Positions 3,333 through 51,266 of a stretch of 64,000 nucleotides of DNA are shown here, piece by piece. The notes beneath the pieces are model-generated. The model saw nothing but the letters and a program-made list of their open reading frames with translations, did no database searches and was not told the origin of the DNA. A program made the position numbers and the translations under genes. The stretch's first letter is position 1, and each line of letters opens with the position of its first letter. The stretch comes from Mycobacterium sp. UM_WGJ (lineage in GTDB: Bacteria; Actinomycetota; Actinomycetes; Mycobacteriales; Mycobacteriaceae). Where the stretch lies: the NCBI RefSeq assembly GCF_000455125.1, contig NZ_AUWR01000018.1, positions 62,001-126,000 of the forward strand, written 5' to 3'.

Positions 3333-3357
3333 TACCCCCTGCCACGGCTGAGCAACC
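3333..3357 (-). promoter_or_regulatory. SigF-like promoter of chaB-mrp operon
   Basis: On the minus strand the sequence is GGTTG-N15-GGGTA, one mismatch in the -35 element relative to the mycobacterial SigF consensus GGTTT-N15/16-GGGTA. The -10 ends 35 bases before the chaB ATG. Confidence 0.6.
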
Positions 3358-3496
3358 ATTTCGGGGGCGTCCACATTCGTCGGCACGACGATCAGGCAAG
3401 CCGAATAATCGTGAATGCTGAACGCTTGGGTCAATTGCTCACCGGCAGTGCCCCATTCATCTCGGTGTACTTCGCGGGTATGCGCGGGGCCGACCG

Positions 3497-4015
3497 TCAC
3501 CAGCCCGTCGGATCGACCTGTCCCGCGGCATCTGAGGCGGCCGAGGGCTGCTGCAGCGCCAAGTCGTCCTCGTCCAGTACGGTCAGTGGGCAGTGGCAGC
3601 GTGACGTCAGCTCCGCGCCGACCGAGCCGAACAGCAGATGCCACAACCGCCAACGGCCGCTCGATCCGACAACGACCAGATCAGCTCGCCGGGACAAATC
3701 CTCCAGCGCGTCAACCGGATCGGTGAACTCCACTTGGGTGTTCAGCTGCGCGGGCGCGCCGTCCGAAGCGCTGTCCGTGGCGACACCGACGGCGTCATCG
3801 ACAATCCGTTGGACGCGCCGGTGCGGCAATTCATGCTGGCCGAACACCGCCCATCGGGCCATCAGAGGCGACAACCGGGTGGAGGCGGCGTGCACCAGGG
3901 TCAGCGGTAGCGCACGGCGTTCGGCCTCCTGCGCTCCCCACCGCACGGCGGCCCGCGATGCCGCGGACCCATCCACTCCGACGACTATTCCGGCACCTGC
4001 TGTATTCGAAGACAT
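3497..4015 (-). CDS. Universal stress protein (ATP-binding type)
   Basis: A single UspA domain of 172 residues. The N-terminal strand IVVGVDGSAASRAAVRW carries the nucleotide-contacting Asp, and the C-terminal part has the complete ATP-binding motif G-2x-G-9x-G-S (GSSGRWRLWHLLFGS), so this member should bind ATP. Family members help mycobacteria survive hypoxia and other stresses; many are SigF- or DosR-controlled. The gene stands alone, reading leftward, with a SigF-like promoter about 14 bases ahead of the start. Single-domain Usps are shorter than the two-domain mycobacterial types, so this is not Rv2623-like. Confidence 0.92.
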   Translation of the reverse strand: MSSNTAGAGIVVGVDGSAASRAAVRWGAQEAERRALPLTLVHAASTRLSPLMARWAVFGQHELPHRRVQRIVDDAVGVATDSASDGAPAQLNTQVEFTDPVDALEDLSRRADLVVVGSSGRWRLWHLLFGSVGAELTSRCHCPLTVLDEDDLALQQPSAASDAAGQVDPTGW

Positions 4016-4028
4016 AGTGGGCGCTGAT

Positions 4029-4054
4029 TAGCCATCGCGCCTTTGCGTCAAACC
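4029..4054 (-). promoter_or_regulatory. SigF-like promoter of usp
   Basis: On the minus strand GGTTT-N16-GGCTA: perfect -35, one mismatch in the -10 (consensus GGGTA). It ends 13 bases before the ATG, leaving at most a few bases of leader. Confidence 0.5.
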
Positions 4055-4078
4055 CCTACGCGTCATCGTTTCTGGCTT

Positions 4079-4213
4079 GGTATCAACGTGCCGCTGGGCC
4101 GCGCCGGTCAGCCGGCCGAACTGGCGTCCGCCTACGTGCTGCTTGCCTCGGACGACGCCAGCTACATCTCCGGGGCCCGTATTGCTGTCACTGGCGGCAA
4201 GCCCATCCTGTGA
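4079..4213 (+). pseudogene. C-terminal remnant of an SDR oxidoreductase
   Basis: The plus strand encodes about 44 residues ending at TGA 4211-4213 that match the C-terminal end of short-chain dehydrogenases of the glucose-dehydrogenase/YhdF type: PLGRAGQPAELASAYVLLAS, then a D-x-SYISG segment and a terminal VTGGKPIL. Nothing SDR-like precedes position 4079: the Rossmann fold and the catalytic Ser-Tyr-Lys are absent, and the upstream 60 bases hold the usp promoter of the other strand. It is therefore a decayed or deleted gene, unrelated in strand and frame to the intact SDR at 4220-5215. Confidence 0.75.
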
Positions 4214-4219
4214 GGCAGC

Positions 4220-8179: not shown

Positions 8180-8204
8180 TACCCCGGCCCCGTGGCGACC
8201 AAAC
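8180..8204 (-). promoter_or_regulatory. SigF promoter of the GMC oxidoreductase operon
   Basis: Minus strand GTTT-N16-GGGTA, an exact match; the -10 ends 46 bases upstream of the ATG at 8133. The divergent plus-strand gene at 8280 has only an imperfect GGTTT-N15-GGGGA match in the same gap. Confidence 0.75.
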
Positions 8205-8513: not shown

Positions 8514-8527
8514 GAAAGGGATTGGTG

Positions 8528-8683
8528 ATGATTGTCCTCGGAGTGATCCTGCTCATTCTGGCGCTCATTTTCAAGATCAACATCCTGTGGACGATCGGCG
8601 TCATTCTGCTGGTTGTCGGCGCGGCACTGTGGATTCTGGGGGCGGTCGGTCGCCCGGTCGCGGGTCGGCGTTACTGGTATTGA
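8528..8683 (+). CDS. DUF6131-type small hydrophobic protein
   Basis: A 51-residue protein made of two hydrophobic helices and a basic end: MIVLGVILLILALIFKINIL, then a second helix, then GRPVAGRRYWY. It matches the small mycobacterial membrane proteins called DUF6131. A paralogue of identical length and the same C-terminal GRPV-GGRRYWY pattern lies at 31753-31908 in the hemerythrin operon. The repeated association with stress genes suggests an envelope or stress-related role, but no activity is known. Confidence 0.8.
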   Translation: MIVLGVILLILALIFKINILWTIGVILLVVGAALWILGAVGRPVAGRRYWY

Positions 8684-8782: not shown

Positions 8783-9739
8783 ATGACTGTCGGTGCCGGC
8801 ACTGATCGCGGTGTGTTCCGTCATATCGCGCTGTTGTACCGGTCACCGCAGGAGTATCTGGACTACCTGGTGGCCTACGTCACCGACAGCGTGGCCGCCG
8901 GAATTCCGGTCTTGGTGGCGGTGCCAGAACCCAACCTGTCGCTGCTTCGTGACGCCCTGCCCGCCGGAGCAGTCGAGTCGGTGAGCCTGTCCGATATGGC
9001 CCAGGTCGGGCGTAACCCCAGTCACATACTGGGCGGTGTCATGGAGGCGTTCGCCGCCCGACACCCGTCGGGACCGGTACGGATGGTCGGCGAGCCGGTC
9101 TGGAGCGGTCGGTCGAAGCTGGAGTATCCGGCCTGCGTGCAGCATGAGGCGCTGGTCAACGAGGCGTTCGCCGGCCGGGATATCACCGTGCTCTGCCCGT
9201 ACGACGCAGCAAGTCTGGACGCCGACATTCTCGTCGACGCTGAGATCACCCATCCAAGGCTGGGCCGTTTCGGACACCCGGAGCGCAACAGCGCCGGCTT
9301 CGCGCCCGAGGCCGCGTGGACGCGCTATAACGAGCCGCTGCCCGGCAGCCCCATGGCGGCGAGCTATACCCTGCACCGGCTCACCGACCTGGCCGGCGCC
9401 CGCAAATTCTCCGCCAAGTACGCCCGCTGGTTCGGATTCTCGACCGCCGACATCGCAGACCTGCAGCTGATCGTCAACGAGCTGGCATCCAACAGCCTGC
9501 AACACGGACTAGGCCCCTGCACTCTGTTGCTGTGGGCGGCGGACGACCAATTGATCTGTCAGGCACGCGATGCCGGCCGCATGACCGACCGGCTGGCCGG
9601 CCGGCGGGCGATCGTCAACGACTACGACCACGGATGCGGACTGTTCGTGGTCAATGCAACCGCGGACCTGGTACGTATCCACACCGCGGCGAGCGGTACC
9701 ACGGTGCAGGCGCATCTACGAATGAGGAAGTTGGCGTGA
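8783..9739 (+). CDS. MEDS-domain sensor with anti-sigma HATPase (RsbA-like)
   Basis: The 318-residue protein has an N-terminal MEDS (DcmR sensory) domain, residues about 5-165, opening with HIALLYRSPQEYLDYLVAYV, and a C-terminal GHKL kinase-like domain with the N-box LQLIVNELASNSLQHG and a G-box region DHGCGLFVVNATADLV. That is the arrangement of RsbA-type regulators, in which the kinase-like part binds a sigma factor or phosphorylates a STAS antagonist. The ATG at 8783 is preferred (AGGGG upstream); one at 8765 is possible. Its stop overlaps the next gene's ATG by one base, and that gene is MEDS-STAS, a ready partner. SigF as the target is inference from the locus. Confidence 0.85.
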   Translation: MTVGAGTDRGVFRHIALLYRSPQEYLDYLVAYVTDSVAAGIPVLVAVPEPNLSLLRDALPAGAVESVSLSDMAQVGRNPSHILGGVMEAFAARHPSGPVRMVGEPVWSGRSKLEYPACVQHEALVNEAFAGRDITVLCPYDAASLDADILVDAEITHPRLGRFGHPERNSAGFAPEAAWTRYNEPLPGSPMAASYTLHRLTDLAGARKFSAKYARWFGFSTADIADLQLIVNELASNSLQHGLGPCTLLLWAADDQLICQARDAGRMTDRLAGRRAIVNDYDHGCGLFVVNATADLVRIHTAASGTTVQAHLRMRKLA

Positions 9740-10566
9740 TGGGGGCGTATCGGGCGGACCGGACGGGCGAGTACGGCCATATCGGTTGGGAATACCAGGA
9801 CCATGCTGATTTCCTGCACCGCGCGGCAGAGTATGTCGCGGACGGTCTGAACCTCGACCAGCGAGTCGCCTACGTCGGCGCGGACGATCCGGCCACCATG
9901 CGAGCCGCCTTGGCCGCCGCCGGGCTGGGAAGTGGCTCGCGAGAGGTACACGTAAAGACCGTGCCGGAGCACTACCTGTTCCGCGGTGATGTCGTCGACG
10001 CTGAGCGCATGACCGAACGCTATGCGGCGGCAGCGGTCGCCGCAGTCGCTGCCGGCTACAGCGGCCTTCGGCTCGTCATCGATGTCACGCCCGTGGTGCG
10101 CACACCCGCACAACGCGACGCCCAAGCGGCCCTGGAATTCCTTGGAGACCGGCGAATCTCCACCCTGCCGGTCGCGGCGATGTGCGGTTACAACGTCGCT
10201 GAACTCGGTGATGCCGCGGCCGGGCTGTTGTGTCTGCACCCGGCGGCCGGCCCGAGCGCGGTGCCGTTCCAGTTGTATGCCCAGCCCGCTGGGCGCAACG
10301 CCATCGCACTAGCCGGCACACTCGACGCCGCCAGCGAGCCGCTGTTCCTCACCACCTTGCAGCGGGTCCTGCCGCTGCTGTCCCAGGACGTCCTCGAGAT
10401 CGACGCGCGGGAACTGGAATTCGTCGGGCACCGGCAACTCTGCCTGCTCGACCGCTACTGCGCCGCCCACGGCCGAACAGCGCTACTGCGCAGCGATCGG
10501 GCAGTCGTGCACCGGCTGGTCAGCCTCCTGGACTTCGCCAACGTTCGCATCGAGACGACGGCGTGA
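9739..10566 (+). CDS. MEDS-domain sensor with C-terminal STAS domain
   Basis: A 275-residue protein with a MEDS domain at residues about 10-180 (GWEYQDHADFLHRAAEYVAD opens it) and a STAS-like fold from about 185 on, with the segment ALAGTLDAASEPLFLTTL and LEIDARELEFVGHRQL where the phosphorylatable Ser would sit. The usual antagonist Ser is replaced by His-Arg-Gln in the visible alignment, so phosphoregulation is uncertain. The ATG overlaps the previous stop (TGATG), so synthesis is coupled to the MEDS-HATPase protein. The pair may sense the same ligand with opposite output. Confidence 0.82.
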   Translation: MGAYRADRTGEYGHIGWEYQDHADFLHRAAEYVADGLNLDQRVAYVGADDPATMRAALAAAGLGSGSREVHVKTVPEHYLFRGDVVDAERMTERYAAAAVAAVAAGYSGLRLVIDVTPVVRTPAQRDAQAALEFLGDRRISTLPVAAMCGYNVAELGDAAAGLLCLHPAAGPSAVPFQLYAQPAGRNAIALAGTLDAASEPLFLTTLQRVLPLLSQDVLEIDARELEFVGHRQLCLLDRYCAAHGRTALLRSDRAVVHRLVSLLDFANVRIETTA

Positions 10567-12032: not shown

Positions 12033-12260
12033 CTATTCGGCCTTGACGACCTCGGCCTCGGCACGGCGAGAGGACCGGTTCCGGCGGCGATGACTGGTGT
12101 CACATAACGGGTAGTTGCCGCTGCGCCCGCACGTGCAGATGGCCACCATGAACCGATCCGATTCGACCACTCCATCGGGCGTCTCGATGCGCACCGGCCC
12201 CGACACCAGCACCGGGCCGTTGCGGACCGGCTTCACCAGGCGCGTACCGTCGCCGCTCAC
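12033..12260 (-). CDS. CDGSH iron-sulfur domain protein
   Basis: The 75-residue protein has the complete [2Fe-2S] ligand motif C-x-C-x2-S-x3-P-x-C-D-x-S-H (CTCGRSGNYPLCDTSH) at residues about 43-58, as in mitoNEET-type domains, with three Cys and one His as ligands. The basic tail is RRRNRSSRR. The GTG at 12260 overlaps the upstream methyltransferase stop by four bases. Such proteins act in redox or Fe-S handling; the specific role is unknown. Confidence 0.9.
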   Translation of the reverse strand: MSGDGTRLVKPVRNGPVLVSGPVRIETPDGVVESDRFMVAICTCGRSGNYPLCDTSHRRRNRSSRRAEAEVVKAE

Positions 12261-12952
12261 GGCTTGTCCGCCCGGATCACCACCAGCTGCTCTTCCCGGC
12301 AGCCGCGGGGCATTCGCCCGGTTCGTTCCAGCCAGTCGGCGCGCGATGAGAGCACTGGGCCGAACGGAATCCATTGGGACGCCACCACCTTGGCATCCAT
12401 ACCGCTTTCTCGTAACACCTTCAGCGACCGGCCGGCGTCTGCCAGTGCGGACTGTACAAGCAGCACCGAACCGCCGCTGCGTAGCAGCGTGGTGGCCGCG
12501 CGGCACAGCGGGTCGAGGATGACCCGGCCATCGATGCCGCCGTTCCACGACCACTCCGGGCCGCCCGCGGCGGGGATTTGGCCGCTGTGGCGCGGGCTGG
12601 GCACATAGGGCGGGTTGGACACGACCAAGTCGAAGGGTTCGCAGGCCAGCGCGCCGGTCCACGGGCCGTGCCGGATATCCACCTCGACTCCCGCGGCACG
12701 AGCGTTGTCCCGCGAACAGCGCACGGCGCGCGGGCAGATGTCGTACGCGGTGACGCTGTCGGCGCCCAGTTCAGCAGCCGCGATCGCCACCACCCCGGAC
12801 CCGGTGCACAGATCGAGTACCCTGCTCCGCCGGGCCAGGCCCGAGGATTCCATCGTGTCGATCAGCAGGTGCGAATCCTGCTGCGGGGCATAGACGCCCG
12901 TATGGGTCAGCAACTGAGGCCTGCTAGGGCAGGTAGCGGTGATGGGGTTCAC
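12257..12952 (-). CDS. HemK-type N5-glutamine methyltransferase-like protein
   Basis: A 231-residue class I methyltransferase with the SAM-binding motif VLDLCTGSGVVAIAAAELG (residues 45-63) and the catalytic NPPY (113-116), which in HemK/PrmC and MTQ2 positions a glutamine amide. It is smaller than PrmC and lacks its N-terminal domain, resembling stand-alone HemK2-like actinobacterial proteins. The target protein is unknown. It starts at GTG 12952, exactly 10 bases after a perfect SigF -10, so its message is probably leaderless, and it is coupled to the CDGSH gene. Confidence 0.85.
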   Translation of the reverse strand: MNPITATCPSRPQLLTHTGVYAPQQDSHLLIDTMESSGLARRSRVLDLCTGSGVVAIAAAELGADSVTAYDICPRAVRCSRDNARAAGVEVDIRHGPWTGALACEPFDLVVSNPPYVPSPRHSGQIPAAGGPEWSWNGGIDGRVILDPLCRAATTLLRSGGSVLLVQSALADAGRSLKVLRESGMDAKVVASQWIPFGPVLSSRADWLERTGRMPRGCREEQLVVIRADKP

Positions 12953-12962: not shown

Positions 12963-12987
12963 TACCCGGCCACAGCGGCGGACAAAC
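12963..12987 (-). promoter_or_regulatory. SigF promoter of methyltransferase-CDGSH operon
   Basis: Minus strand GTTT-N16-GGGTA, exact. The -10 is followed by 10 bases and then the GTG start codon. Confidence 0.78.
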
Positions 12988-14187: not shown

Positions 14188-14341
14188 ATCCGAAGGCAGC
14201 GGCTGCTATCCCAGCCGCGAGGCGCAATTGCTTTTCCAGCCCGATCACGTTGACCCGGTCTACCGCCGCCATCCCCGCTACGAACCGGGTGTCCGGCCGG
14301 GCGGGAACCTGCCCGGTATGGCGATGTTTGAGCAAACTCAT
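14150..14341 (-). CDS. Possible small protein coupled to the TPP enzyme
   Basis: A 63-residue frame begins with an ATG that overlaps the TAA stop of the upstream TPP-enzyme gene (TAATG), a common coupling geometry. It opens MSLLKHRHTGQVPARPD and has a hydrophobic segment (LRLAAGIAAAAFGF), then an Arg-rich tail. Its last 38 bases lie inside the 3-prime end of the convergent enolase-superfamily gene, and I do not recognise the product. It may be real or chance. Confidence 0.3.
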   Translation of the reverse strand: MSLLKHRHTGQVPARPDTRFVAGMAAVDRVNVIGLEKQLRLAAGIAAAAFGFRRRGTRRGRPV

Positions 14342-16185: not shown

Positions 16186-16209
16186 TACCCGCCCCTTGTT
16201 TTGTCAAAC
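16186..16209 (-). promoter_or_regulatory. SigF promoter of TPP enzyme gene
   Basis: Minus strand GTTT-N15-GGGTA, exact; the -35 overlaps the last codon of udgX. Distance from -10 to ATG is 27 bases. Confidence 0.78.
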
Positions 16210-17860: not shown

Positions 17861-17884
17861 TACCCGTCGTGGCGGGGGCTAATC
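17861..17884 (-). promoter_or_regulatory. SigF-like promoter of LLM-udgX operon
   Basis: Minus strand GATT-N15-GGGTA, one mismatch in the -35. The start codon is 11 bases beyond the -10. Confidence 0.5.
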
Positions 17885-18891: not shown

Positions 18892-18917
18892 TACCCTGCC
18901 CGGCCGACGGGGAAACC
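18892..18917 (-). promoter_or_regulatory. SigF promoter of mpt63
   Basis: Minus strand GGTTT-N16-GGGTA, an exact five-base -35 and -10. The 71-base leader carries GGAAGGAG ahead of the ATG. Confidence 0.78.
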
Positions 18918-33977: not shown

Positions 33978-33995
33978 CGGCGGGCCGCCTGCCCG

Positions 33996-34990: not shown

Positions 34991-35016
34991 GGTGTAGGAG
35001 TGCGCGTGTGGGGGTA
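34991..35016 (+). promoter_or_regulatory. SigF-like promoter of lipoprotein gene
   Basis: GGTGT-N16-GGGTA, one mismatch in the -35, then 10 bases to ATG 35027. Only 5 bases separate its -35 from that of the divergent DJ-1 promoter. Confidence 0.55.
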
Positions 35017-39663: not shown

Positions 39664-39688
39664 GTTTGCCCCTCGGTTGTATTGGGTA
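39664..39688 (+). promoter_or_regulatory. SigF promoter of cutinase-like gene
   Basis: GTTT-N16-GGGTA, exact. It covers the TTG at 39682, so translation must start downstream, at GTG 39703, 14 bases after the -10. Confidence 0.75.
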
Positions 39689-40377: not shown

Positions 40378-40476
40378 CCGTCAAGCCGGGCCGCGCGGCG
40401 CGCCGGCCCTGGCGGGCACCGCAACCTGCATGACCATCGGTGACTAGCCGCCCCCGGCAGCGGGTATGCCCCGGCC

Positions 40477-42249
40477 ATGGACGAGGGATCTCCGCTGCTC
40501 GAACATTTCCCGCCGCAGGTATTGCGCCAGTATGCGTTGATCGCAGACGGTGAGCGCGGGATCCTGGTCGGGCCACGAGGCGACTTCTGCTGGATGTGCC
40601 TGCCCCGATGGGACAGTCCGGCCGTGTTCAGTTCGCTCCTCGGTGGGCCGGGGGTCTATGCCGTCACCCCGGAGTTGCGCTACGTCTGGGGCGGCCGATA
40701 CGAGGAGCGATCGCTGATCTGGCGTTCTCGCTGGGTCACCACCGATGGGATCGTGGAATGCCGCGAGGCCCTGGCCTTCCCCGGGGACATGCACACGGCC
40801 GTGGTGTTACGCCGCATCCAGGCACTCGACCGGCCGATGCGAATGCAGGTCGCGCTCGACGTTCGCGCCGAGTTCGGCGCCACCGCGATGTCGGAACTGT
40901 CCTGCGAAGGGGGGCTCTGGACCGGGCGGTCGGGGCCGCACCGTTTCCGGTGGACGGGCGGCGCCGAGGCCCGTCGCGCCGCCGACGGGTCGCTGCGCAT
41001 GGTGCTCGACGTCGCGCCCGGACGCGATCACGACCTGGTGCTGGAGTTGTCCGATCGCGAACTGCCGGCGCAACCGGTGAGCGCAGACCTGGCCTGGGAC
41101 GGCACCGAAAACGCCTGGCAACAAGCTGTTCCGGAGATCACCGGCACCCTGGCCGACGTCGATGCGCAACTCTCCTATGCGGTATTGCGGGGCTTGACCA
41201 GCACTGGCGGCGGAATGGTCGCGGCCGCCACGATGTCGCTGCCGGAGCGGGCCAGTGAAGGGCGCAACTACGACTATCGCTACTGCTGGATTCGCGACCA
41301 GTGTTACACCGGACAGGCGATCGCCGCCGCGGGCCCGCACCCGCTGCTCGACGACGCCGTCCGGTTCGTCACCGAGCGCGTCCTAGACGACGGACCTGAC
41401 CTGCGACCGGCCTACTGCGTCGACGCCACGATGGCGCCGCCGGAACACGATCTGCCACTGCCCGGCTACCCGGGCGCGGTCGTCAAAACCGGCAATTGGG
41501 TCGGCGACCAGTTCCAGCTCGACAACTTCGGCGAGGCACTGCTGCTGCTGGCCGCCGCAGGACGCCTGGACCGGCTCGACAGCACCCATTGGCGTGCGGT
41601 GCACGTCTTGGTGGACGCAATCGAAAAGCGTTGCGCCGAGCCAGACGCCGGAATCTGGGAACTGGACGACCAACGCTGGGCCCACTCCCGGCTGATGTGC
41701 GCCGCCGGACTGCGCCGAATAGCCGGCGTGGCGTCATTGGCCGAAGGTGCCCGCTGGCAGCAGCTGGCCGACAAGCTGGTCAGCGATACCAGCACGGACT
41801 GCCTGCACCGCGACGGCAGGTGGCAACGCGCGCCGCAGGATTCCGGAGTCGACGCGGCCCTGCTGCTTCCGGCCCTACGCGGAGCCGTCCCTGCCGACGA
41901 TGCCCGCACCCTGGCGACGCTGGCCGCGGTGCGCGACGAGCTCACCCAGGATGGCTTCGTCTACCGCTACCGGCCCGACCAGCGCGGCCTCGGGGAGGCC
42001 GAAGGGGCGTTCCTGTTGTGCAACTTCGTGATGGCGCTGGCAGATCATCAGCAGGGCAACAACCTTGCCGCACTGCAGTGGTTCGAACGGGGCCGTACCG
42101 CGTGCGGCCCGTCCGGACTGCTCGCCGAGGAGTATGACGTCGGGCAACGTCAGTTGCGCGGCAACCTGCCGCAGGCGTTCGCGCACGCCTTGCTGTTCGA
42201 GTCCGCGCACGTGTTGGGCAACTCCATCACGGCTCATCTCATGGCTTGA
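40477..42249 (+). CDS. Glycoside hydrolase family 15 protein
   Basis: The 590-residue protein has an N-terminal beta-sandwich (residues about 10-210, YALIADGERGILVGPRGDF) and a C-terminal (alpha/alpha)6 barrel with GRNYDYRYCWIRDQ, GNWVGDQFQLDNFGEALLLL and a later DVGQRQLRGNLPQAF. Actinobacterial members are glucoamylases or trehalases; trehalase activity has been shown for mycobacterial GH15. A GGGTA is 10 bases before the ATG, but no proper -35 is present. It overlaps the convergent alcohol dehydrogenase gene by 11 bases. Confidence 0.9.
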   Translation: MDEGSPLLEHFPPQVLRQYALIADGERGILVGPRGDFCWMCLPRWDSPAVFSSLLGGPGVYAVTPELRYVWGGRYEERSLIWRSRWVTTDGIVECREALAFPGDMHTAVVLRRIQALDRPMRMQVALDVRAEFGATAMSELSCEGGLWTGRSGPHRFRWTGGAEARRAADGSLRMVLDVAPGRDHDLVLELSDRELPAQPVSADLAWDGTENAWQQAVPEITGTLADVDAQLSYAVLRGLTSTGGGMVAAATMSLPERASEGRNYDYRYCWIRDQCYTGQAIAAAGPHPLLDDAVRFVTERVLDDGPDLRPAYCVDATMAPPEHDLPLPGYPGAVVKTGNWVGDQFQLDNFGEALLLLAAAGRLDRLDSTHWRAVHVLVDAIEKRCAEPDAGIWELDDQRWAHSRLMCAAGLRRIAGVASLAEGARWQQLADKLVSDTSTDCLHRDGRWQRAPQDSGVDAALLLPALRGAVPADDARTLATLAAVRDELTQDGFVYRYRPDQRGLGEAEGAFLLCNFVMALADHQQGNNLAALQWFERGRTACGPSGLLAEEYDVGQRQLRGNLPQAFAHALLFESAHVLGNSITAHLMA

Positions 42250-43417
42250 GCACGACCTTCACCGCGCCGTCGCGTTTCTCCTGAAACATCTGGTAAGCCT
42301 GTGGCGCCTGCTCCAGTGGCAGTTCGTGGGTAGCGAAGGTGTCGACACCCAACGGGTCGTCGTCGGTCAACAGCGGCATCAGCGCGTCCACGCGCGGCTT
42401 GACGTTGGCCTGCCCCATCCGCACCGTGATCTGCTTGTCGAACAAGGTGAACATCGGCAACGGGTCGAGTTTGCCGCCATACACACCGACGATCGAGAGG
42501 GTGCCGCCGCGGCGCACAATATCGATCGCGGCGTACAGCGCGGCGAGCCGGTCGATACCGGCCTTGTTGATCAACGGTCCGGCCACGGCGTCCGGCAGCA
42601 GCGAGCTGAGCTGCTGCACGGCCTTGGCGCCGGCGGAGCCGTGCGCCTCCATACCGACAGCATCGATCACCGCATCGGTGCCGCGGCCGTCCGTGCGGTC
42701 ACGAATCACCTCACCGATATCGGATACCTCACTCAGGTCGACGATTTCGATCCCCCGCCTTGCCAGCCGGCCCAGCCGCTCAGGCACCAGATCCACGCCG
42801 ATCACCCGGGCCCCCTGATGGGTGGCGATGCGGGCCGCCATGTCGCCGATCGGTCCGAGTCCCAGCACCGTCACGGAGCCGCCGTCGGGTATCGCCGCGT
42901 AGTCAACCGCCTGCATCGCGGTCGGCAGCACATCGGACAGATACACGAAACGCGAATCCGGCGGCCCGTCGGGAACTTTGATGTGGGTGTATTGCGCCTG
43001 CGGCACGCGCAGGTACTGTGCCTGCGCGCCCGGAACCTGCCCGTAGAGCTTGGAGTAACCGAACAGGGCAGCGCCGGTGTCCTGCTCGCGGACCCGGGTG
43101 GTGTCGCATTGGGTCGGCAGACCGCGTTTGCACATGCAGCAATGCCCACAGGCGATCTGAAACGGGATGACCACCCGGTCACCGGGTTTGAGATTGCTGA
43201 CCTCACCACCGACCTCGGTCACGATGCCGATCGGCTCATGGCCCAGGATGTCGCCGGGATCCATGAACGGACCGAGCACCTCATAGAGATGCAGATCCGA
43301 CCCGCAGATGTTGGTCGTCGTCACTTCGATGACGGCGTCGGTCGGCTTCTCGATCACCGGGTCGGGGACCGTGTCGACCTGTACTTTGCGCTTGCCCTGC
43401 CATGTGACTGCCCGCAT
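42239..43417 (-). CDS. Zinc-dependent alcohol dehydrogenase (FdhA-like)
   Basis: The 392-residue MDR enzyme has catalytic zinc ligands (NICGSDLHLY and GHEPIGIV), structural-zinc cysteines in CGHCCMCKRGLPTQC, and the NAD-binding VLGLGPIGDMAARIA. It resembles glutathione-independent formaldehyde dehydrogenases, which use NAD to oxidise aldehydes or alcohols. The ATG follows GGAGGCGACC. A perfect SigF promoter is 38 bases upstream, divergent from that of the Mn-catalase. Confidence 0.92.
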   Translation of the reverse strand: MRAVTWQGKRKVQVDTVPDPVIEKPTDAVIEVTTTNICGSDLHLYEVLGPFMDPGDILGHEPIGIVTEVGGEVSNLKPGDRVVIPFQIACGHCCMCKRGLPTQCDTTRVREQDTGAALFGYSKLYGQVPGAQAQYLRVPQAQYTHIKVPDGPPDSRFVYLSDVLPTAMQAVDYAAIPDGGSVTVLGLGPIGDMAARIATHQGARVIGVDLVPERLGRLARRGIEIVDLSEVSDIGEVIRDRTDGRGTDAVIDAVGMEAHGSAGAKAVQQLSSLLPDAVAGPLINKAGIDRLAALYAAIDIVRRGGTLSIVGVYGGKLDPLPMFTLFDKQITVRMGQANVKPRVDALMPLLTDDDPLGVDTFATHELPLEQAPQAYQMFQEKRDGAVKVVLKP

Positions 43418-43455: not shown

Positions 43456-43480
43456 TACCCGCCCGCAGCGCGGCGCAAAC
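43456..43480 (-). promoter_or_regulatory. SigF promoter of alcohol dehydrogenase
   Basis: Minus strand GTTT-N16-GGGTA, exact; part of a divergent pair with 43507-43530. Confidence 0.78.
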
Positions 43481-43506: not shown

Positions 43507-43530
43507 GTTTAGCCGGGGTGCCCACGGGTA
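43507..43530 (+). promoter_or_regulatory. SigF promoter of Mn-catalase
   Basis: GTTT-N15-GGGTA, exact; 41-base leader with AGGGAG before the ATG. Confidence 0.78.
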
Positions 43531-43571: not shown

Positions 43572-44462
43572 ATGTTCGTGCACAACAAGGAGATGCAGTT
43601 CGAGGTCCGGGTCGAACGGCCCGATCCACGGTTCGCCAACCTGTTGCAGGAGCAGTTCGGTGGTGAGAACGGTGAGCTCAAGGCGGCGATGCAATACTTC
43701 ACCCAGGCGTTCCTGCTGCGTCGCAAAAACCCGAAGATGTATGACCTGTTCATGGATATCGCCACCGAGGAGCTCAGCCACCTTGAGATGGTCGGCTCGC
43801 TGATCACCATGCTGCTCGACGGCCTCAACGACGATCTGAAGAACGCCAACGAGCGCTGCGATTGGATGCCCGCGGTGGCCGGCCGCGACGGTCGCGAGCA
43901 GATCATCCACCAGGTTGCGCTCAATCCGCTGCACTTCGTGGAGACCGGCGGCGGCCCGCACGTCAGCAATGCAATGGGCACACCCTTCACCGGGGCGTAC
44001 ATCAACGCCAATGGCGACCCGTCGGTGGACCTGCGCAGCAACCTCGGGGCCGAATCACGGGCCAAGGTGGTCTACGAATACCTCAAGCAGTTCACCGATG
44101 ACCCCGGCGTTCAGGACACTCTGACCTTCCTGATGACCCGTGAGGTCACCCACTTCCAGCAATTCACCGCCGCGCTCAACGAGCTGCCGGTCAACTTCCC
44201 GCCCGGCCAGGCGCCCGGCGACGAGCGCTTTCAGAACGTGGCATTCAACATGTCCGAAGGCGAGACCAGCCGGGGACCGTGGAACCAAGGCCAGGGCCCG
44301 TGGCCCAATGGCATGGAGTGGGACTACGTCAAGCGCCCGTCCCGGGATTGGCTCGGTGGTTCTGTACGGAAAAACCTTGGGCCGCAGGATAACCCGGAGG
44401 GCAGTCCCGCTGTGCACGCCGACAAGCCCTTCGCGCACCAACAGCACACCGCCACCGCGTAG
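43572..44462 (+). CDS. Manganese catalase
   Basis: The 296-residue ferritin-fold protein has the dimanganese ligands in helices ENGELKAAMQYFTQAFLLRR (Glu), ATEELSHLEMVG (Glu, His), ESRAKVVYEYLKQF (Glu) and MTREVTHFQQFTAAL (Glu, His). It decomposes hydrogen peroxide without heme, in the cytoplasm. M. smegmatis carries a SigF-regulated Mn-catalase-like gene. The C-terminus is Pro/His-rich. A small gene follows 42 bases downstream, likely on the same transcript. Confidence 0.94.
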   Translation: MFVHNKEMQFEVRVERPDPRFANLLQEQFGGENGELKAAMQYFTQAFLLRRKNPKMYDLFMDIATEELSHLEMVGSLITMLLDGLNDDLKNANERCDWMPAVAGRDGREQIIHQVALNPLHFVETGGGPHVSNAMGTPFTGAYINANGDPSVDLRSNLGAESRAKVVYEYLKQFTDDPGVQDTLTFLMTREVTHFQQFTAALNELPVNFPPGQAPGDERFQNVAFNMSEGETSRGPWNQGQGPWPNGMEWDYVKRPSRDWLGGSVRKNLGPQDNPEGSPAVHADKPFAHQQHTATA

Positions 44463-44680: not shown

Positions 44681-45265
44681 TCAACTCTTAGGCGCATCGG
44701 GCGGATTGTCCGCCACCCGCCCGCTCAACTGGTCGCGCAGATGGTCGACAACGGCAGCGGCCATTCCCACGGTGTTCTGAGCCAAGCCGCCCGACGGGGC
44801 ATTGGGATGTGGCCGGGTCGCCGCGATCTTCTTGGCGGTTTGCAGCTTGTCACCCAGCTGCTCAAGATCGTCTGCACTGACCGCCCCTCTGAACCGCGGC
44901 CACACCACATTCTCTTCGTAACTGATGTGCTCCCTTGCCACCGTGACGAATTCGCTCAGCGCCCGGTGATACTCGAGCTCACCCGGCTGACCGTCCTCAA
45001 GCTCCTGCAGCAGCACCTTGCCCGCTTCCTCCTGGGCGATGGCGTGGTCCGCCAAATCATCGCCATCTTCGAGGGCCGCGCGGACCGCCGGCCAGAACAG
45101 CTGTTCCTCGATGGACTCGTGCTGGGACTCGGCGATCACCAAGTTGGTGACCATGGTCGCCAACCCGCTCTGCTGCGCCCCGTCGCCCTGCGGCGCGCCG
45201 TCGAGTACCTGCAACATGCCCAACACGCTCTCGTGGTCGGCGCGAAGAAAGCTCAATGCGTCCAC
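44681..45265 (-). CDS. Hemerythrin HHE domain protein
   Basis: The 194-residue protein starts at GTG 45265 after GGGGAGGAAA. HHE ligands are visible in FLRADHESVLGMLQ, IAESQHESIEEQLFWPAV, LADHAIAQEEA and VAREHISYEENVVWPRFR, which together provide the His and Glu ligands of a diiron site. It is a second hemerythrin-like protein in this window, distinct from 31905-32468. A perfect SigF promoter lies 50 bases upstream. A 14-bp tandem duplication surrounds its stop. Confidence 0.92.
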   Translation of the reverse strand: MDALSFLRADHESVLGMLQVLDGAPQGDGAQQSGLATMVTNLVIAESQHESIEEQLFWPAVRAALEDGDDLADHAIAQEEAGKVLLQELEDGQPGELEYHRALSEFVTVAREHISYEENVVWPRFRGAVSADDLEQLGDKLQTAKKIAATRPHPNAPSGGLAQNTVGMAAAVVDHLRDQLSGRVADNPPDAPKS

Positions 45266-45315: not shown

Positions 45316-45339
45316 TACCCGCCGGGATGGGACCGAAAC
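45316..45339 (-). promoter_or_regulatory. SigF promoter of second hemerythrin
   Basis: Minus strand GTTT-N15-GGGTA, exact; divergent with 45362-45385. Confidence 0.78.
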
Positions 45340-45361: not shown

Positions 45362-45385
45362 GTTTCACCACCGCCTCGCGGGGTA
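45362..45385 (+). promoter_or_regulatory. SigF promoter of FAD-Rieske oxidoreductase
   Basis: GTTT-N15-GGGTA, exact, then 10 bases to ATG 45396. Confidence 0.78.
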
Positions 45386-45395: not shown

Positions 45396-46901
45396 ATGAC
45401 CTCGTTGTGGCTCGCCGACCGGATCGAGACATCACCGGCTTCGGGCACCGCCGAAGATGTGCCCGGTGTCGCCGACGTGGTGGTGGCGGGCGCCGGTATC
45501 ACCGGTTTGATGACCGCGGTGCTGCTGGCGCGCGCCGGCCGCCACGTGCTGGTGCTGGAGGCCAGGACGGTCGGAGCCTGCGCGACCGGCAACACCACCG
45601 CCAAGATCAGCCTGCTGCAGGGCACCCAGCTGTCGACGATCTCGGCGAAACAGGGCAAAAGCCTGGCCGCTGCCTACCTGGACGGCAACCGCGCCGGACA
45701 GGACTGGCTGCTGTCGTTCTGCGCGGCTGCCGGGGTGCCGATCCAGCGGGAGGACGCTTACAGTTTCGCCCAGTCCGAGCGTGGGGTGGCGGCGGCGCGG
45801 GCCGAGTTCGAGGCCTGCCGCGCATTGGGTCTGCCGGCGACATGGGAGGCGCACGCTGACGTACCGTTCGACTACCACGGCGGTGTCCGCCTGATCGCAC
45901 AGGCACAGTTCGACCCCATGCCGTTCCTCGATGCGCTGCGCGCCGAGCTGCTCGCCCACGGTGGCCAACTTCTGGAACACACCCGGGTACAGCAGGTTTC
46001 GAGCAACCGTCACGGAGTTCGACTCGAAGTCGACGGCCCGCACAGGCGCGCCGAACTGCAGGCCACTCAACTGGTGCTGGCCACCGGAATCCCGATCCTG
46101 GACCGCGGCGGATACTTTGCCCGCGTCAAACCCAGCCGGTCATACTGCATGGCGTTCGACGTGCCCGGCGAGGTCACCCGCCCCATGATGATCTCCACCG
46201 ATTCGCCGACCCGGTCGCTGCGCTACGCCCCGGTCAACGGCTCGGAACTGCTCCTGGTCGGCGGGGCGGGCCACACCGTCGGCCGCGAAAAGCACCCGAC
46301 GGATGCGCTGGCCGAACTCGAGTCGTGGGCGGTCCGGCATTACCCGGGCGCCATCCGCACGCACCTGTGGTCCGCGCAGGACTACGCACCCGTCGATGAG
46401 CTGCCCTACGTCGGCCCCATTCTTCCGGAGAACGAAACCATCTACGTGGCAACCGGGTTCAACAAATGGGGCATGACCAACGGGGCGGCCGCCGCGCTGG
46501 CGTTGTCGGGCCGACTGCTCGGCAAACGACCGAAGTGGGACCGAGCGTTCGCCAGCTGGAGAACCAGCGAGCTACGCGGCCTGCCGACGGCCCTGGCAGC
46601 CAATCTCTCGGTCGGCCTCAATCTGGCGAAGGGCTGGATCACGCCGACGGCCCACATCGGCCAGCAATGCCTGGGCACCGACTCGGGCGTGGTCAGCGGA
46701 CCCCCGTGGCGACTGCAGGCCAAGTGCCGGGTGGACGGCGTTGAACACCGCCTCTCCCCGGTCTGCCCCCACCTGGGTGGCATCGTCACCTGGAACGACG
46801 CCGACCGGGCCTGGGAGTGCCCGCTGCACGGGTCGCGCTTCGCTCCCGACGGGACCCTGCTGGAAGGCCCGGCCACCCGCGGCCTGACCGCCGGCAGCTG
46901 A
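45396..46901 (+). CDS. FAD-dependent oxidoreductase with C-terminal Rieske domain
   Basis: A 501-residue protein: DAO-type FAD domain (VVVAGAGITGLMTAVLLARA near residue 28 and YVATGFNKWGMTNGAAAALA near 355) and a C-terminal Rieske domain (residues about 410-500) with both cluster loops, CPHLGG and CPLHGSRFAPDG. Such proteins oxidise an amine or similar donor, passing electrons to the [2Fe-2S] centre. The gene is leaderless by promoter position and is divergent from the hemerythrin gene. It ends 20 bases before the sigF stop. Confidence 0.92.
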   Translation: MTSLWLADRIETSPASGTAEDVPGVADVVVAGAGITGLMTAVLLARAGRHVLVLEARTVGACATGNTTAKISLLQGTQLSTISAKQGKSLAAAYLDGNRAGQDWLLSFCAAAGVPIQREDAYSFAQSERGVAAARAEFEACRALGLPATWEAHADVPFDYHGGVRLIAQAQFDPMPFLDALRAELLAHGGQLLEHTRVQQVSSNRHGVRLEVDGPHRRAELQATQLVLATGIPILDRGGYFARVKPSRSYCMAFDVPGEVTRPMMISTDSPTRSLRYAPVNGSELLLVGGAGHTVGREKHPTDALAELESWAVRHYPGAIRTHLWSAQDYAPVDELPYVGPILPENETIYVATGFNKWGMTNGAAAALALSGRLLGKRPKWDRAFASWRTSELRGLPTALAANLSVGLNLAKGWITPTAHIGQQCLGTDSGVVSGPPWRLQAKCRVDGVEHRLSPVCPHLGGIVTWNDADRAWECPLHGSRFAPDGTLLEGPATRGLTAGS

Positions 46902-46921: not shown

Positions 46922-47710
46922 CTATTGCAGCTGATCGCGCAGCTTAGCCAGCGATTTGGCCAGCAGGCGCGACACGTGCATCTGCGAAATGCCGACCCGC
47001 TCGGCGATCTGGGTCTGGGTCATCGATTCGAAGAACCGCAGCACCAGCACCGTGCGTTCGCGCTCCGGCAGGGCATCCAGCAAGGGCCGCAACGCCTCCC
47101 GATCCTCGATGCGGTCCATCCGGGCGTCGACGTCGCCGAGGGTGTCGGCGATCGAGCGGACGTCGTCCTCGTCCGAGCTGCCGCCGCCGTCGATCGACAG
47201 CGTGTTGTACGAGCTGCCCGCGACCAGTCCTTCGACCACCTCGTCGCGGCTCAACTCAAGCTCGCCCGCCAGCTCGGAGGGGGTCGGCGCCCGCCCCAGG
47301 CGTTGCGACAGCTCAGCTGTGGCGACGCCCAACCGAAGATGCAGCTCTTTGAGCCGGCGGGGCACTTTGACCGACCAGCTGTTGTCGCGGAAGTGCCGGC
47401 GGACCTCGCCCATGATCGTCGGAACCGCGAACGAGACGAAATCCGAGCCGGTTTCGACGTCGAAGCGCGTCACGGCGTTGACCAGACCCACCCGCGCTAC
47501 TTGAACCAGGTCGTCCCGCAGCTCTCCGCGCCCCTCGAACCGGCGAGCGATGTGGTCCGCCAGCGGCAGACACCGTTCCACGATCTTGTCTTTGCGGTTC
47601 CGGAAGTCGGGCGAGTCGGCGTCATATTGGGCGAGCTCGCGAAACATGTCGCCGACGTCGGCGTATTCCGATCCGGACTGTGAGCCGCTGCCGGCGGCAC
47701 GCGGGCTCAC
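46922..47710 (-). CDS. sigF: Alternative sigma factor SigF
   Basis: The 262-residue SigB/SigF-type sigma factor has region 2 with HIARRFEGRGELRDDLVQVA and FDVETGSDFVSFAVPTIMGE, region 3 KVPRRLKELHLRLGVATAEL, and region 4 LPERERTVLVLRFFESMTQT then GISQMHVSRLLAKSLAKL. It directs RNA polymerase to GTTT-N15/16-GGGTA promoters, of which at least 13 exact copies occur in this window. The GTG start overlaps rsbW by four bases. Equivalent to Rv3286c. Confidence 0.95.
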   Translation of the reverse strand: MSPRAAGSGSQSGSEYADVGDMFRELAQYDADSPDFRNRKDKIVERCLPLADHIARRFEGRGELRDDLVQVARVGLVNAVTRFDVETGSDFVSFAVPTIMGEVRRHFRDNSWSVKVPRRLKELHLRLGVATAELSQRLGRAPTPSELAGELELSRDEVVEGLVAGSSYNTLSIDGGGSSDEDDVRSIADTLGDVDARMDRIEDREALRPLLDALPERERTVLVLRFFESMTQTQIAERVGISQMHVSRLLAKSLAKLRDQLQ

Positions 47711-48144
47711 CGCCCGGAGTCCGCCCGGCGGGTTGTCAACGTGACACCGAATACCTCACCCGCACCGTTGGAGTCGTGCCCGTCCCGGAATGCCTCGACG
47801 TCATCGACCAGCGAGGTGAGCACGTGCCAGCTGAAGCTTCCCGGGGTCAGTACGCCGGCCCCGTCACCGGCTGCCGACGCCTGGACCGTCACATGGTCGT
47901 CGTGTGGGTCGATGACGACAGACAGCATCGCGCCGGGGGCGGCGCTCCGGATCAGCTGGGTGCACAGCTCGTCGATCGCCAGCCGCAGATCAGCGACGGT
48001 GTCGACGTCAAGATCCTCGTAGGTGGCGATCGCACCGACCAGCATGCGCACCACCGCCAGACTTTCCAGCCTGGGCTTTACCCGCAGTTCGACGGCCCGT
48101 TCACTGCAAGAACGCTGAGTCCGGTCACTGTCAATGTCGGTCAT
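47707..48144 (-). CDS. rsbW: Anti-sigma F factor RsbW (UsfX)
   Basis: The 145-residue GHKL protein has the N-box in VADLRLAIDELCTQLIRSA and a later SFSWHVLTSLVDDVEAFRDG. It binds and holds SigF until an antagonist (RsfA/RsfB-like STAS protein) releases it; the STAS proteins in this window are candidates. The ATG at 48144 follows GGGAGG. Coupled to sigF by a four-base overlap. Equivalent to Rv3287c. Confidence 0.92.
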   Translation of the reverse strand: MTDIDSDRTQRSCSERAVELRVKPRLESLAVVRMLVGAIATYEDLDVDTVADLRLAIDELCTQLIRSAAPGAMLSVVIDPHDDHVTVQASAAGDGAGVLTPGSFSWHVLTSLVDDVEAFRDGHDSNGAGEVFGVTLTTRRADSGR

Positions 48145-48296: not shown

Positions 48297-48321
48297 TACC
48301 CGATCACCGGGGAACTCAATC
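48297..48321 (-). promoter_or_regulatory. Possible SigF autoregulatory promoter of rsbW-sigF
   Basis: Minus strand GATT-N16-GGGTA, one mismatch; it would give a leader of about 145 bases before rsbW. The M. tuberculosis usfX-sigF operon is autoregulated. The rest of the 48145-48391 gap shows no gene. Confidence 0.4.
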
Positions 48322-49309: not shown

Positions 49310-49334
49310 GTTTGGGCGCACGGCTGCCCGGGAA
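49310..49334 (+). promoter_or_regulatory. SigF-like promoter of csbD
   Basis: GTTT-N16-GGGAA, one mismatch in the -10; about 63 bases ahead of the csbD ATG. Confidence 0.5.
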
Positions 49335-49397: not shown

Positions 49398-49637
49398 ATG
49401 TCGGACGACAAGAACAGCGCTACCGAGGACGGCATCCGCGGCGCCGTGGAGGGCGTCAAGGGCAAGGCCAAGGAAGCACTAGGGGCCGTGACCGGCAACG
49501 ACGAGCTGGCCCGCGAGGGCCGGGCGCAGCAGGACAAGGGCGAAGCGCAGCGCGACGCCGCCAAACACCAAGCCGAGGCCGAATCGGCCCGGGCGGGTGC
49601 CAAGGCAGCCGAGGCGCGCGAGCAGTCGCACCAGTAG
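49398..49637 (+). CDS. CsbD family stress protein
   Basis: The 79-residue hydrophilic protein opens with ATEDGIRGAVEGVKGKAKEALG and VTGNDELAREGRAQQDKGEA, the CsbD signature, then an Ala/Glu/Lys-rich helical tail. CsbD proteins are abundant general-stress proteins (SigB-controlled in Bacillus) of unknown mechanism. The ATG follows AAGGGAG. A terminator hairpin follows directly. Confidence 0.92.
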   Translation: MSDDKNSATEDGIRGAVEGVKGKAKEALGAVTGNDELAREGRAQQDKGEAQRDAAKHQAEAESARAGAKAAEAREQSHQ

Positions 49638-49695: not shown

Positions 49696-49720
49696 GGTTA
49701 CTTCTTGGGTGCAGCGGGTA
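49696..49720 (+). promoter_or_regulatory. SigF-like promoter of GlnR-like regulator
   Basis: GGTTA-N15-GGGTA, one mismatch in the -35; 46 bases to the ATG at 49767. Confidence 0.5.
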
Positions 49721-49766
49721 GTAAAAGCCTTGAGGCTGCATAGCATCCATGGGTTGGAGCCAGGCG

Positions 49767-50441
49767 ATGGAGATCGTGTTACTGACCGACCGCGACGAAT
49801 TCGCGGGGTCACTGTCGGGGTTGGCTGTCTTCGGGCATTCGATCGTCCGCAGGCCGCTGACCGTCACCGCGCGAGCCGACTGCCGTGACGCGAAAGCCGT
49901 ACTGGTGGACGGCTGTGTTGATGTGACGGCAGCGCGGGAGAGCTGTCGCAAACTCGGAGCCTGGGCGCCGTCGGCCGCCGTCTTGGCCGTCGTCGCCGCC
50001 GACGACTTCCCGTCAGTCGGCCTCGACTGGCACGTCGACGATGTCCTGATCGCGACCGCGGGTTCAGCCGAGGCGAGCGCGCGGCTGCGCCTGGCATTGG
50101 CCCGTCGGCGCGAACCCGCCTCTAACGCGGTGCATTTCGGCGCCTTGGTCATCCACCCGGACAGTTTCAACGCGTCACTGTCGAATCGCGATCTCGACCT
50201 CACGCTCACCGAATTCAAACTGCTCAGCTACCTGGTACAGCACGCCGGCCAAGCATTCACCCGGGCCCGGCTGCTGCGCGAGATATGGGGCGGCGAGGGC
50301 GGCCGTCGCAAAGTCGACGTTCACGTGCAGCGGTTGCGCGCCAAGCTCGGCGCCGACCACGAGTCGATCATCGACACGGTCCGTGGCGTCGGATACATGG
50401 CGCCGGAACTGCCCCAGCCGCAATGGGCCATCGCCAACTGA
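49767..50441 (+). CDS. GlnR-like atypical response regulator
   Basis: The 224-residue protein has an atypical receiver (EIVLLTDRDEFAGSLSGLAV, LAVVAADDFPSVGLDWHVDD) lacking the standard acidic pocket, and an OmpR-type winged helix with DLTLTEFKLLSYLVQHAGQAF, TRARLLREIWG and VDVHVQRLRAKLGADHESII. It resembles GlnR, the orphan nitrogen regulator, throughout both domains, but no histidine kinase is near. ATG 49767 is chosen for its GGAG; 49749 is also possible. A SigF-like promoter points to a stress-linked transcription factor, so a second GlnR-family member is likely. Confidence 0.85.
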   Translation: MEIVLLTDRDEFAGSLSGLAVFGHSIVRRPLTVTARADCRDAKAVLVDGCVDVTAARESCRKLGAWAPSAAVLAVVAADDFPSVGLDWHVDDVLIATAGSAEASARLRLALARRREPASNAVHFGALVIHPDSFNASLSNRDLDLTLTEFKLLSYLVQHAGQAFTRARLLREIWGGEGGRRKVDVHVQRLRAKLGADHESIIDTVRGVGYMAPELPQPQWAIAN

Positions 50442-50455
50442 GAGAGCCAGACACC

Positions 50456-50779
50456 ATGACAGAGCAACCCGATTCCGATTCAGCGGCCACCGACACCACC
50501 GGCGACGACACGCTGCCGCCGAGCGAGGCCACCGACTCCGACGAGCTGCGCGACGACGACGGCGACGCAACCGTCGGTCCACCGGACGCCTGGCAAGCCG
50601 CCGACAGCGAGACCGCGCACGAGTCGTTGGACGCCAAACTGGCTGCCGAGCAACCCGATGTGGCCGGTCCTGACCACGATCCCGACGAAGCTGACGAAGC
50701 GGTAGGGGGCGGTCGACACCGAGCGCAGGTGTCCGGCACCCCCGAAGACGGCGACTCGTTCTTCACCGTCGAGGAGTGA
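50456..50779 (+). CDS. Acidic disordered protein (DUF5709-like)
   Basis: A 107-residue protein of strongly acidic composition with HESLDAKLAAEQPDVAGPDH, which recalls the ESLD-x-L-AxExPDV pattern of DUF5709 proteins, and an end of FFTVEE. No structured domain is evident. It starts 15 bases after the GlnR-like regulator, so it is cotranscribed. Function unknown. Confidence 0.7.
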   Translation: MTEQPDSDSAATDTTGDDTLPPSEATDSDELRDDDGDATVGPPDAWQAADSETAHESLDAKLAAEQPDVAGPDHDPDEADEAVGGGRHRAQVSGTPEDGDSFFTVEE

Positions 50780-50810
50780 ACTCGGTAGTGGTTTTCGCAG
50801 GCCGGATCCG

Positions 50811-51206
50811 TCAGAACATCACAACCAAAGCGGCCAAGTCGGCCAGCAACAGCGTCCACCCGCACGCCCAGACCACCATCCCGCGGGGATGCGTCGCCAG
50901 GAAGAAGGCGAGGAACAGCGTCAGCGCCGCTACGCCGGCCGCTCCGTGATACAGCACGCCGAACAGCGAGCCGTTCACCTTCAGGTCCGGGCACGCCGCC
51001 CTGTTACACAGCGCGGTGCCGGACACCCTGGCCAGCGCGAACGCCATCAGCAGTGCGGCGGCCGGTGCGGTCAGCAGCGACAGCGCCCAGTTCACCCACG
51101 TCCAATCGCGGGGTGGCGCCTCGGGCGGCGCGGCGCCTGCCGCGCGCGGGTGTGCATCGGCGAAGATCGGCCGGACCGCCGTCGCACCGTCATCCAGAAT
51201 GATCAT
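50811..51206 (-). CDS. Small membrane protein, paralogue of 33996-34343
   Basis: The 131-residue protein has three helices, NWALSLLTAPAAALLMAFAL, YHGAAGVAALTLFLAFFLAT and VVWACGWTLLLADLAALVVM, with a two-Cys loop (TALCNRAACPDLKVNG) and YHGAAG where the paralogue reads YYGAPA. Both begin with a W-V-N-W segment before helix 1. A perfect SigF promoter is 35 bases upstream. Function unknown. Confidence 0.8.
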   Translation of the reverse strand: MIILDDGATAVRPIFADAHPRAAGAAPPEAPPRDWTWVNWALSLLTAPAAALLMAFALARVSGTALCNRAACPDLKVNGSLFGVLYHGAAGVAALTLFLAFFLATHPRGMVVWACGWTLLLADLAALVVMF

Positions 51207-51241
51207 CCCCGCCTCCGATCACCGAAATCACCGAGTCCGGA

Positions 51242-51266
51242 TACCCCGCGGCGACGAGCCCAAAAC
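51242..51266 (-). promoter_or_regulatory. SigF promoter of small membrane protein
   Basis: Minus strand GTTT-N16-GGGTA, exact; 35 bases before the ATG at 51206, in the gap shared with lhr. Confidence 0.75.

Follow-up and report, generated by a model that had tools for sequence, protein, structure and literature searches.

The sigF locus and its promoter-type sites

We analyzed a 64,000-nucleotide stretch of the genome of Mycobacterium sp. UM_WGJ (hereafter the window; contig 18, positions 62001–126000; genome 4.47 Mb, denoted G000 in the comparisons), in which the gene for the sigma factor SigF lies among many matches to the promoter-type motif GTTT-N15/16-GGGTA. The sigF gene (46922–47710, minus strand; Pfam sigma-70 regions 2, 3, and 4) overlaps rsbW/usfX (47707–48144, minus strand), which encodes an anti-sigma factor (HATPase_c_2 domain, 27.5 bits against a Pfam cut-off of 27.4). 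A SigF orthologue and its RsbW anti-sigma partner, as a SigF regulon requires, are thus both present. Judged by SigF, the genome is assigned to Mycolicibacter (M. terrae complex), a group of soil mycobacteria: the protein is 98% identical to SigF of Mycolicibacter heraklionensis and M. icosiumassiliensis, the best eleven named matches among the best 80 of 296 SigF loci all come from Mycolicibacter, and a quick tree built from 93 SigF rows has 14 Mycolicibacter rows (including the window and the genomes G022 and G016) split off by a branch with a support of 99. In G000, G016, and G022, sigF is the only SigF-type gene detected at an E value of 1e-40.

Genes were called with a simple codon-usage finder written for this analysis, and sites were scored with spacers of 15 and 16 bases. 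The original prediction, made from the sequence alone, listed 13 exact sites, and all 13 are in place, 3 on the plus strand and 10 on the minus strand. Its statement that nearly all sites lie within 80 bases of a start codon and point at it is borne out by every one of these 13: all are intergenic, correctly oriented, and 11–73 bases upstream of the start, that is, at the distance and on the strand appropriate for GTTT-N14-19-GGGTA promoters of SigF regulon members.

In order along the window, with the fraction of Mycolicibacter orthologues retaining an exact site given for each, these sites precede the unit g14–g11, encoding an unknown protein, gluconate-dh3, a GMC oxidoreductase, and an SDR (site 8180–8204, minus; 5/5); a methyltransferase and CDGSH pair at 12033–12913 (12963–12987, minus; 3/7, with a further 1/7 at 8/9, where 8/9 denotes one mismatch); a thiamine-pyrophosphate (TPP) enzyme at 14341–16158 (16186–16209, minus; 5/5); a DUF1942 protein at 18341–18820 (18892–18916, minus; 6/6); two glycosyltransferases at 24724–26923 (26964–26987, minus; 4/5, the fifth at 8/9); and a hemerythrin, DUF6131, and metallo-lactamase-fold unit at 30994–32468 (32479–32503, minus; 5/5). 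The next unit (32516–34951; site 34961–34985, minus; 5/6) encodes DJ-1/PfpI, a small protein without a Pfam match, which we take to be UsfY-like, and an Orn/Lys/Arg decarboxylase. It is followed by a cutinase and GH15 glycosidase pair at 39724–42249 (39664–39688, plus; 8/8); a zinc alcohol dehydrogenase at 42239–43417 (43456–43480, minus; 4/4) with a divergent manganese catalase at 43572–44462 (43507–43530, plus; 1/1); a hemerythrin at 44681–45265 (45316–45339, minus; 1/1) with a divergent FAD oxidoreductase carrying a Rieske domain at 45396–46901 (45362–45385, plus; 4/4); and a small protein without a Pfam match at 50811–51206 (51242–51266, minus; 4/7).

The eight one-mismatch sites of the original prediction are also all present as strings, although three of them start one base later than it had them (19802, 34992, and 49697). 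Two are doubtfully placed: 19802–19826 (plus) overlaps the called start of a CheB gene (19820), and 34992–35016 (plus) lies 109 bases before 35126–36058; both are kept at 8/9 (in 2/2 and 3/3 orthologues, respectively). The others precede a ChaB-family gene at 2884–3297 (3333–3356, minus; 8/9 in 6/7 orthologues), a universal stress protein gene at 3497–3976 (4029–4053, minus; 4/4), a luciferase-like gene at 16887–17849 (17861–17884, minus; at the cut used, the other islands yielded no orthologue), a CsbD-like gene at 49398–49637 (49310–49334, plus; 7/7), and a GlnR-type regulator gene at 49749–50441 (49697–49720, plus; 7/7). The remaining site (48297–48321, minus) lies 152 bases before rsbW and matches at 8/9; an 8/9 site occurs 108–169 bases before rsbW in 8/8 other Mycolicibacter islands, and judging from its position it is likely an autoregulatory promoter of rsbW-sigF. 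Thus, the one-mismatch sites of the ChaB, universal stress protein, CsbD, GlnR-type, and rsbW-sigF units are kept in nearly all orthologues found.

Two sites had been overlooked. A conserved one-mismatch site (29779–29803, minus; 8/9 in 6/6 orthologues) precedes a cutinase gene (29063–29767), and a 14th exact site (57092–57116, minus), beyond lhr and nei, is followed after about 40 bases by a lipoprotein-like frame of 141 codons with its start at 57052. This 14th site has a counterpart at +8.6 to +10.5 kb in 7/8 other Mycolicibacter regions and none within 10 kb in G064 (locus L134). By our count, the interval from accA3 to sigF, together with the part from sigF to just past nei, contains some 20–24 transcription units in the window genome that have an exact or one-mismatch SigF-type promoter in front of them, in most cases suitably spaced.

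Density of sites in the window and the genome

A check fixed in advance compared the site density of the window with the genome average. The genome contains 33 exact sites, 14 of which are in the window, amounting to about 30 times the mean density; the reversed control pattern yields 9 matches genome-wide. Contig 18 holds 16 of the 33 between about 53.5 and 119 kb, two of them just to the left of the window, near a small gene without a Pfam match (site inside the called start) and a luciferase-like gene. About 0.4 exact sites are expected per 60 kb, and when 33 sites were placed at random 200,000 times, the fullest 43.1-kb stretch held 7, against 13 observed. In 100 first-order Markov resamplings of positions 1–51300, exact sites averaged 0.09 (maximum 2) against 13, and sites with at most one mismatch averaged 5.8 (maximum 13) against 34, the 13 exact ones included. 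By a rough rule, 7 of the 17 exact sites outside the island have a clear start downstream and up to 10 have a possible one, so that among credible sites the share of the island may be higher than 16/33.

The enrichment is equally apparent per gene. Exact sites occur within 150 bases upstream of 14 of the 72 genes between accA3 (biotin carboxylase by Pfam) and lhr, against 8 of 1194 background genes (Fisher p ~2e-13), and one-mismatch sites occur before 9/72 against 23/1194 (p ~7e-6). The 72-gene count is unfiltered, unlike the background, which comprises genes from the sigF regions of 27 non-Mycolicibacter genomes, excluding weak calls and genes from -1 to +8 kb of sigF.

Conservation within Mycolicibacter

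For comparison, we used a 30-genome genus sample, chosen for sigF on long contigs from 58 genomes with a SigF match; it contains three Mycolicibacter (G000, G016, and G022) and the 27 others. With additional genomes, nine Mycolicibacter regions were compared (G000, G016, G022, G060, G061, G062, G064, G065, and G067).

An exact site is kept before 55 of the 64 Mycolicibacter orthologues of the 13 genes. In orthologue alignments made blind to the sites, identity to the window is 87% in the GTTT box and 88% in the GGGTA box, against 57% in the spacer and 61 and 70% in the flanks; the promoters are thus more conserved than their surroundings, as expected of a SigF regulon. Among the best 80 of 296 SigF loci, some of them shorter than 20 kb, 4–11 sites lie within 10 kb of sigF in 11/11 Mycolicibacter loci and 0–3 in 69/69 others, which often have one exact site 1–2 kb before sigF. 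In the 60 kb around sigF (-45 to +15 kb), the three Mycolicibacter genomes of the sample hold 14/33, 12/31, and 11/24 of their exact sites, and the 27 others hold 0–4 sites, with 0–1 in 18 of them. Extending this frame to +30 kb in 4 of the 27 revealed no more sites. Taken together, 102 of 252 exact sites in the nine Mycolicibacter genomes fall in 60–89 kb around sigF, against 37 of 1102 within 60 kb in the 27 others, although the individual match lists behind the comparison-genome counts are partial. Per Mycolicibacter genome, the island share of exact consensus sites ranges from one quarter to nearly half.

Seven island genes were sought in the nine Mycolicibacter genomes at an E value cut of 1e-50, with one to five first-look candidates left unscored in three genomes. 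Close homologues (at least 76% identity) are at the sigF locus or were not found, and other matches do not exceed 39%. The distance between accA3 and sigF, measured in seven of the nine regions, is 9.5 kb in G061, 14.9 in G065, 25.2 in G062, 33.3 in G016, 41.5 in G067, 53.0 in G064, and 56.1 in G000, against 0.03–12.9 kb in the 27 non-Mycolicibacter genomes. The gathered island characterizes the Mycolicibacter clade, and it is mainly the accA3–sigF interval that has grown.

The same genes in other mycobacteria

Eight genomes, complete or nearly so, were searched for ten island genes. In six of these genomes (G006, G009, G011, G012, G031, and G045), the orthologues occupy about 4–6 places per chromosome, often in pairs (methyltransferase with PfpI; manganese catalase with hemerythrin); in G029 and G020, the search yielded no orthologue for most of the ten. 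Genes for the decarboxylase, GH15, alcohol dehydrogenase, and Hsp20, searched in 60 genomes, are mostly apart among the matches listed.

The scattered orthologues nevertheless carry the same sites. With orthologues defined by at least 45% identity over 60% of the length (45 rows, including three from G020 and one from G009 within 60 kb of sigF), a site of at least 8/9 was found before 34 of the 45 outside the clade, 18 of them exact and usually 10–100 bases upstream, against 31/1194 background genes; 330 bases were scored for orthologues and 180 for the background. Of the 34 sites, two, both of g44, lie 28–29 bases past the aligned start, and the rest are no further than 134 bases upstream of it. 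Because the orthologues elsewhere have the same sites and are mostly apart, the regulon either existed before it became clustered in Mycolicibacter or has been dispersed in the other lineages.

A separate observation concerns G029 (5.1 Mb), in which hardly any of the ten genes was found and accA3 and sigF are 27 bases apart. Its exact sites (19, against 25 for the reversed control) show no excess, and G029 possibly represents a decayed SigF regulon.

Origin of the island

The view that a SigF regulon has been gathered around sigF, put forward in the original prediction, is supported by the roughly 30-fold density, the presence of sigF and rsbW, the conserved sites, and the scattered orthologues that carry such sites. 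We consider it probable (about 0.8), judging from these sequence comparisons, that the region is a SigF-controlled general-stress island whose modules were brought together before the sampled Mycolicibacter parted. Modules of one to four genes, already equipped with SigF promoters, would have been gathered between accA3 and sigF; the gathering would predate the split of the sampled species, with modules gained and lost there since.

Several observations weigh against this interpretation. Some Mycolicibacter orthologue promoters lack the site (g65, present in 4/7; g22, 4/7 even with 8/9 counted), and outside the clade g44, g24, and g14 have weak sites. The 60-kb frame around sigF is lopsided, accA3 lies outside the stretch in G022 and G060, and the accA3–sigF distances overlap, with 9.5 kb in G061 and 12.9 kb in the non-Mycolicibacter genome G014; the G061 stretch holds only 6/23 sites, one of them beyond accA3. 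Most sensor genes of the island (MEDS, ANTAR, CheR, and STAS) have no SigF sites, which is expected because inputs must exist before stress. Finally, G031 has a cluster of 21 island homologues (at least 45% identity) with 8 exact sites in 60 kb (2.305–2.365 Mb; L292–L294), about 300 kb from its own sigF (2.661 Mb). Gathering, therefore, can take place without sigF nearby, and a single older cluster may have been shared.

The G031 cluster bears on two other histories of the island. In one, a ready-made SigF-controlled stress cluster entered beside sigF once, as a block, and was then rearranged. Besides G031, this would accommodate G023, in which two island homologues are adjacent on a contig other than that of sigF (among the matches listed), and a plasmid of Rhodococcus koreensis with five island homologues and five exact sites in 41.7 kb. 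A plasmid origin was considered and set aside. Searches with the alcohol dehydrogenase and the GH15 protein had plasmids of Rhodococcus and Streptomyces among their best matches, and in the three Rhodococcus plasmid regions inspected, exact sites number five in R. koreensis, one in USK10, and none in RHA1. Against entry as a block, gene order in G031 matches the island only locally, island size and content vary between species, and the identities of island proteins to those of other mycobacteria (45–77%) overlap those of lhr and nei (70–76%). Moreover, no integrase or transposase was found among 69 proteins scanned (60 from the window and 9 more, the left flank and the first seven window genes being scanned in part), the window contains no tRNA, and GC content is 66.7%, compared with 68.4 and 68.7% for the short window flanks; we regard entry as a single block as possible but doubtful. 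For the proteins and sequence so scanned, a classical mobile genomic island was rejected, with neither integrase, transposase, nor tRNA end found and no aberrant base composition; there were no Rfam matches at gathering thresholds. In the other history, which appears still less likely, the regulon was already clustered in the ancestor of the genus and dispersed in most lineages. Partial clusters of the same genes in G031 and in G020, which has some oxidoreductase, TPP, and GH15 genes 20–26 kb from sigF, are consistent with this, as is the SigF stress cluster next to sigF in Mycobacterium smegmatis (PMC5445863). The places differ, however: the cluster lies mostly towards accA3 in Mycolicibacter, on the rsbW side of sigF in M. 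smegmatis, and about 300 kb away in G031. In addition, 18 of the 27 non-Mycolicibacter genomes have 0–1 sites near sigF, and all 27 have accA3–sigF gaps of at most 12.9 kb.

That the sites serve another sigma factor, or several, is very improbable: the motif has been tied to SigF in M. smegmatis (PMC4694148), and sigF, the only such gene in the genome at an E value of 1e-40, lies inside the island in an operon with a near-match of its own. Chance or base composition can be dismissed as a source of the pattern, since genome density, random placement, Markov resampling, and the conservation of the sites are all contrary (0.09 exact sites expected, 13 seen).

Given the clusters in G031, G020, the R. 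koreensis plasmid, and M. smegmatis, the last on the opposite side of sigF, gathering may have happened more than once, although a shared mobile pool or one older cluster is also possible. Tentatively, and with more doubt than confidence, closeness to sigF itself could be favoured, with ready-made SigF modules repeatedly accumulating there, towards accA3 in Mycolicibacter and towards rsbW in M. smegmatis. If so, linkage to the sigma factor gene, through joint transfer or synthesis of the sigma factor near its targets, would enhance the response, and the variable interval of 9.5–56 kb, with modules present here or nowhere in the clade, would represent accretion in progress. Alternative sigma factors usually control genes dispersed over the chromosome. 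Many of the same genes, with the same promoters, are scattered in several relatives, gathered in one clade, and gathered elsewhere in a further relative; this offers a natural experiment on regulon clustering, for which joint transfer, co-regulation, and chance are candidate causes, and a single locus could reveal much of the M. terrae complex SigF regulon.

Sensor genes and the predicted SigF switch

The island also encodes potential inputs to SigF. Two paired sensor genes without a SigF site (8783–10566, plus; Pfam) contain MEDS (DcmR-type) sensory domains, one joined to an anti-sigma type HATPase and the other to a STAS-like domain that scores below the cut-off. The MEDS-HATPase gene was found in 7 and the MEDS-STAS gene in 4 of the 8 other islands, and by domain composition the pair likely provides inputs to the SigF switch. 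The same is likely for a signalling block (19092–24572; Pfam) encoding PAS-ANTAR, CheB, STAS, CheR-PAS, and GAF-ANTAR proteins. A further STAS-domain protein (27233–27667, plus; Pfam) is, by its family, a likely anti-anti-sigma factor. The rsbW homologue adjoins sigF in 27/27 non-Mycolicibacter regions, and the homologue of this STAS gene lies 0.24–0.31 kb from sigF in 24 of them, against 14–20 kb in G000, G022, and G016.

In M. smegmatis, RsbW is reported to bind SigF, and antagonists such as RsfB to free it (PMC7693655). The protein families and promoters of the island suggest a similar circuit, in which RsbW would hold SigF until STAS antagonists and sensors encoded in or near the island free it under stress. 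RNA polymerase with SigF would then fire its own rsbW-sigF promoter (48297–48321) and the island genes, including those for catalases, hemerythrins, CsbD, ChaB, the universal stress protein, dehydrogenases, and cutinases.

Two further features of these genes were observed. The CheR-PAS gene (21674–23525, plus) appears to be frameshifted near 22230–22300, by a draft error or a real break; its homologues in G022 and G064 are single-frame (617–619 aa) and match the window gene in two pieces. Two small DUF6131 proteins (8525–8683 and 31753–31908) end alike in GRRYWY.

Comparison with known SigF regulons

Clustering of SigF genes near sigF is already known for M. smegmatis, in which a stress cluster, MSMEG_1750-1804, lies near sigF (PMC5445863) and MSMEG_1766-1803 include SigF-dependent genes (PMC4694148). 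Deletion arrays tied GTTT-N14-19-GGGTA to SigF in this species, and the SigF-dependent genes include those for a methylase, a manganese catalase, S-(hydroxymethyl)glutathione dehydrogenase, and an FAD oxidoreductase (PMC4694148); by name alone, 4 of the 10 island gene kinds tested match such genes. A literature search, judged on titles and abstract openings, found no description of a SigF island in Mycolicibacter among the papers listed.

The M. smegmatis cluster resembles the Mycolicibacter island in having many SigF-dependent genes with this motif near sigF and shares UsfY and the methylase with it by name. By locus numbers, it is on the rsbW side, an acyl-CoA carboxylase gene (MSMEG_1807) being three numbers past sigF (MSMEG_1804), whereas the Mycolicibacter island is mainly on the accA3 side, with 12 of the 13 exact sites there and 1 on the rsbW side, and is thus unlike the M. 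smegmatis type. In addition, the M. smegmatis hydroxymethylglutathione dehydrogenase, manganese catalase, and arginine decarboxylase genes are, by name, far from the cluster, and the island has them near sigF.

The plasmid cluster of Rhodococcus koreensis R85 (L304) has in common with the island homologues of the decarboxylase, the TPP enzyme, an enolase-like protein, GH15, and SDR, as well as exact sites (five), but it is plasmid-borne, limited to those five homologues, and without an annotated sigma factor in its 41.7 kb. The scattered mycobacterial SigF regulon has the sigma factor, the motif, and many genes in common with the island and differs in being distributed over about 4–6 places in the six genomes, as opposed to one.

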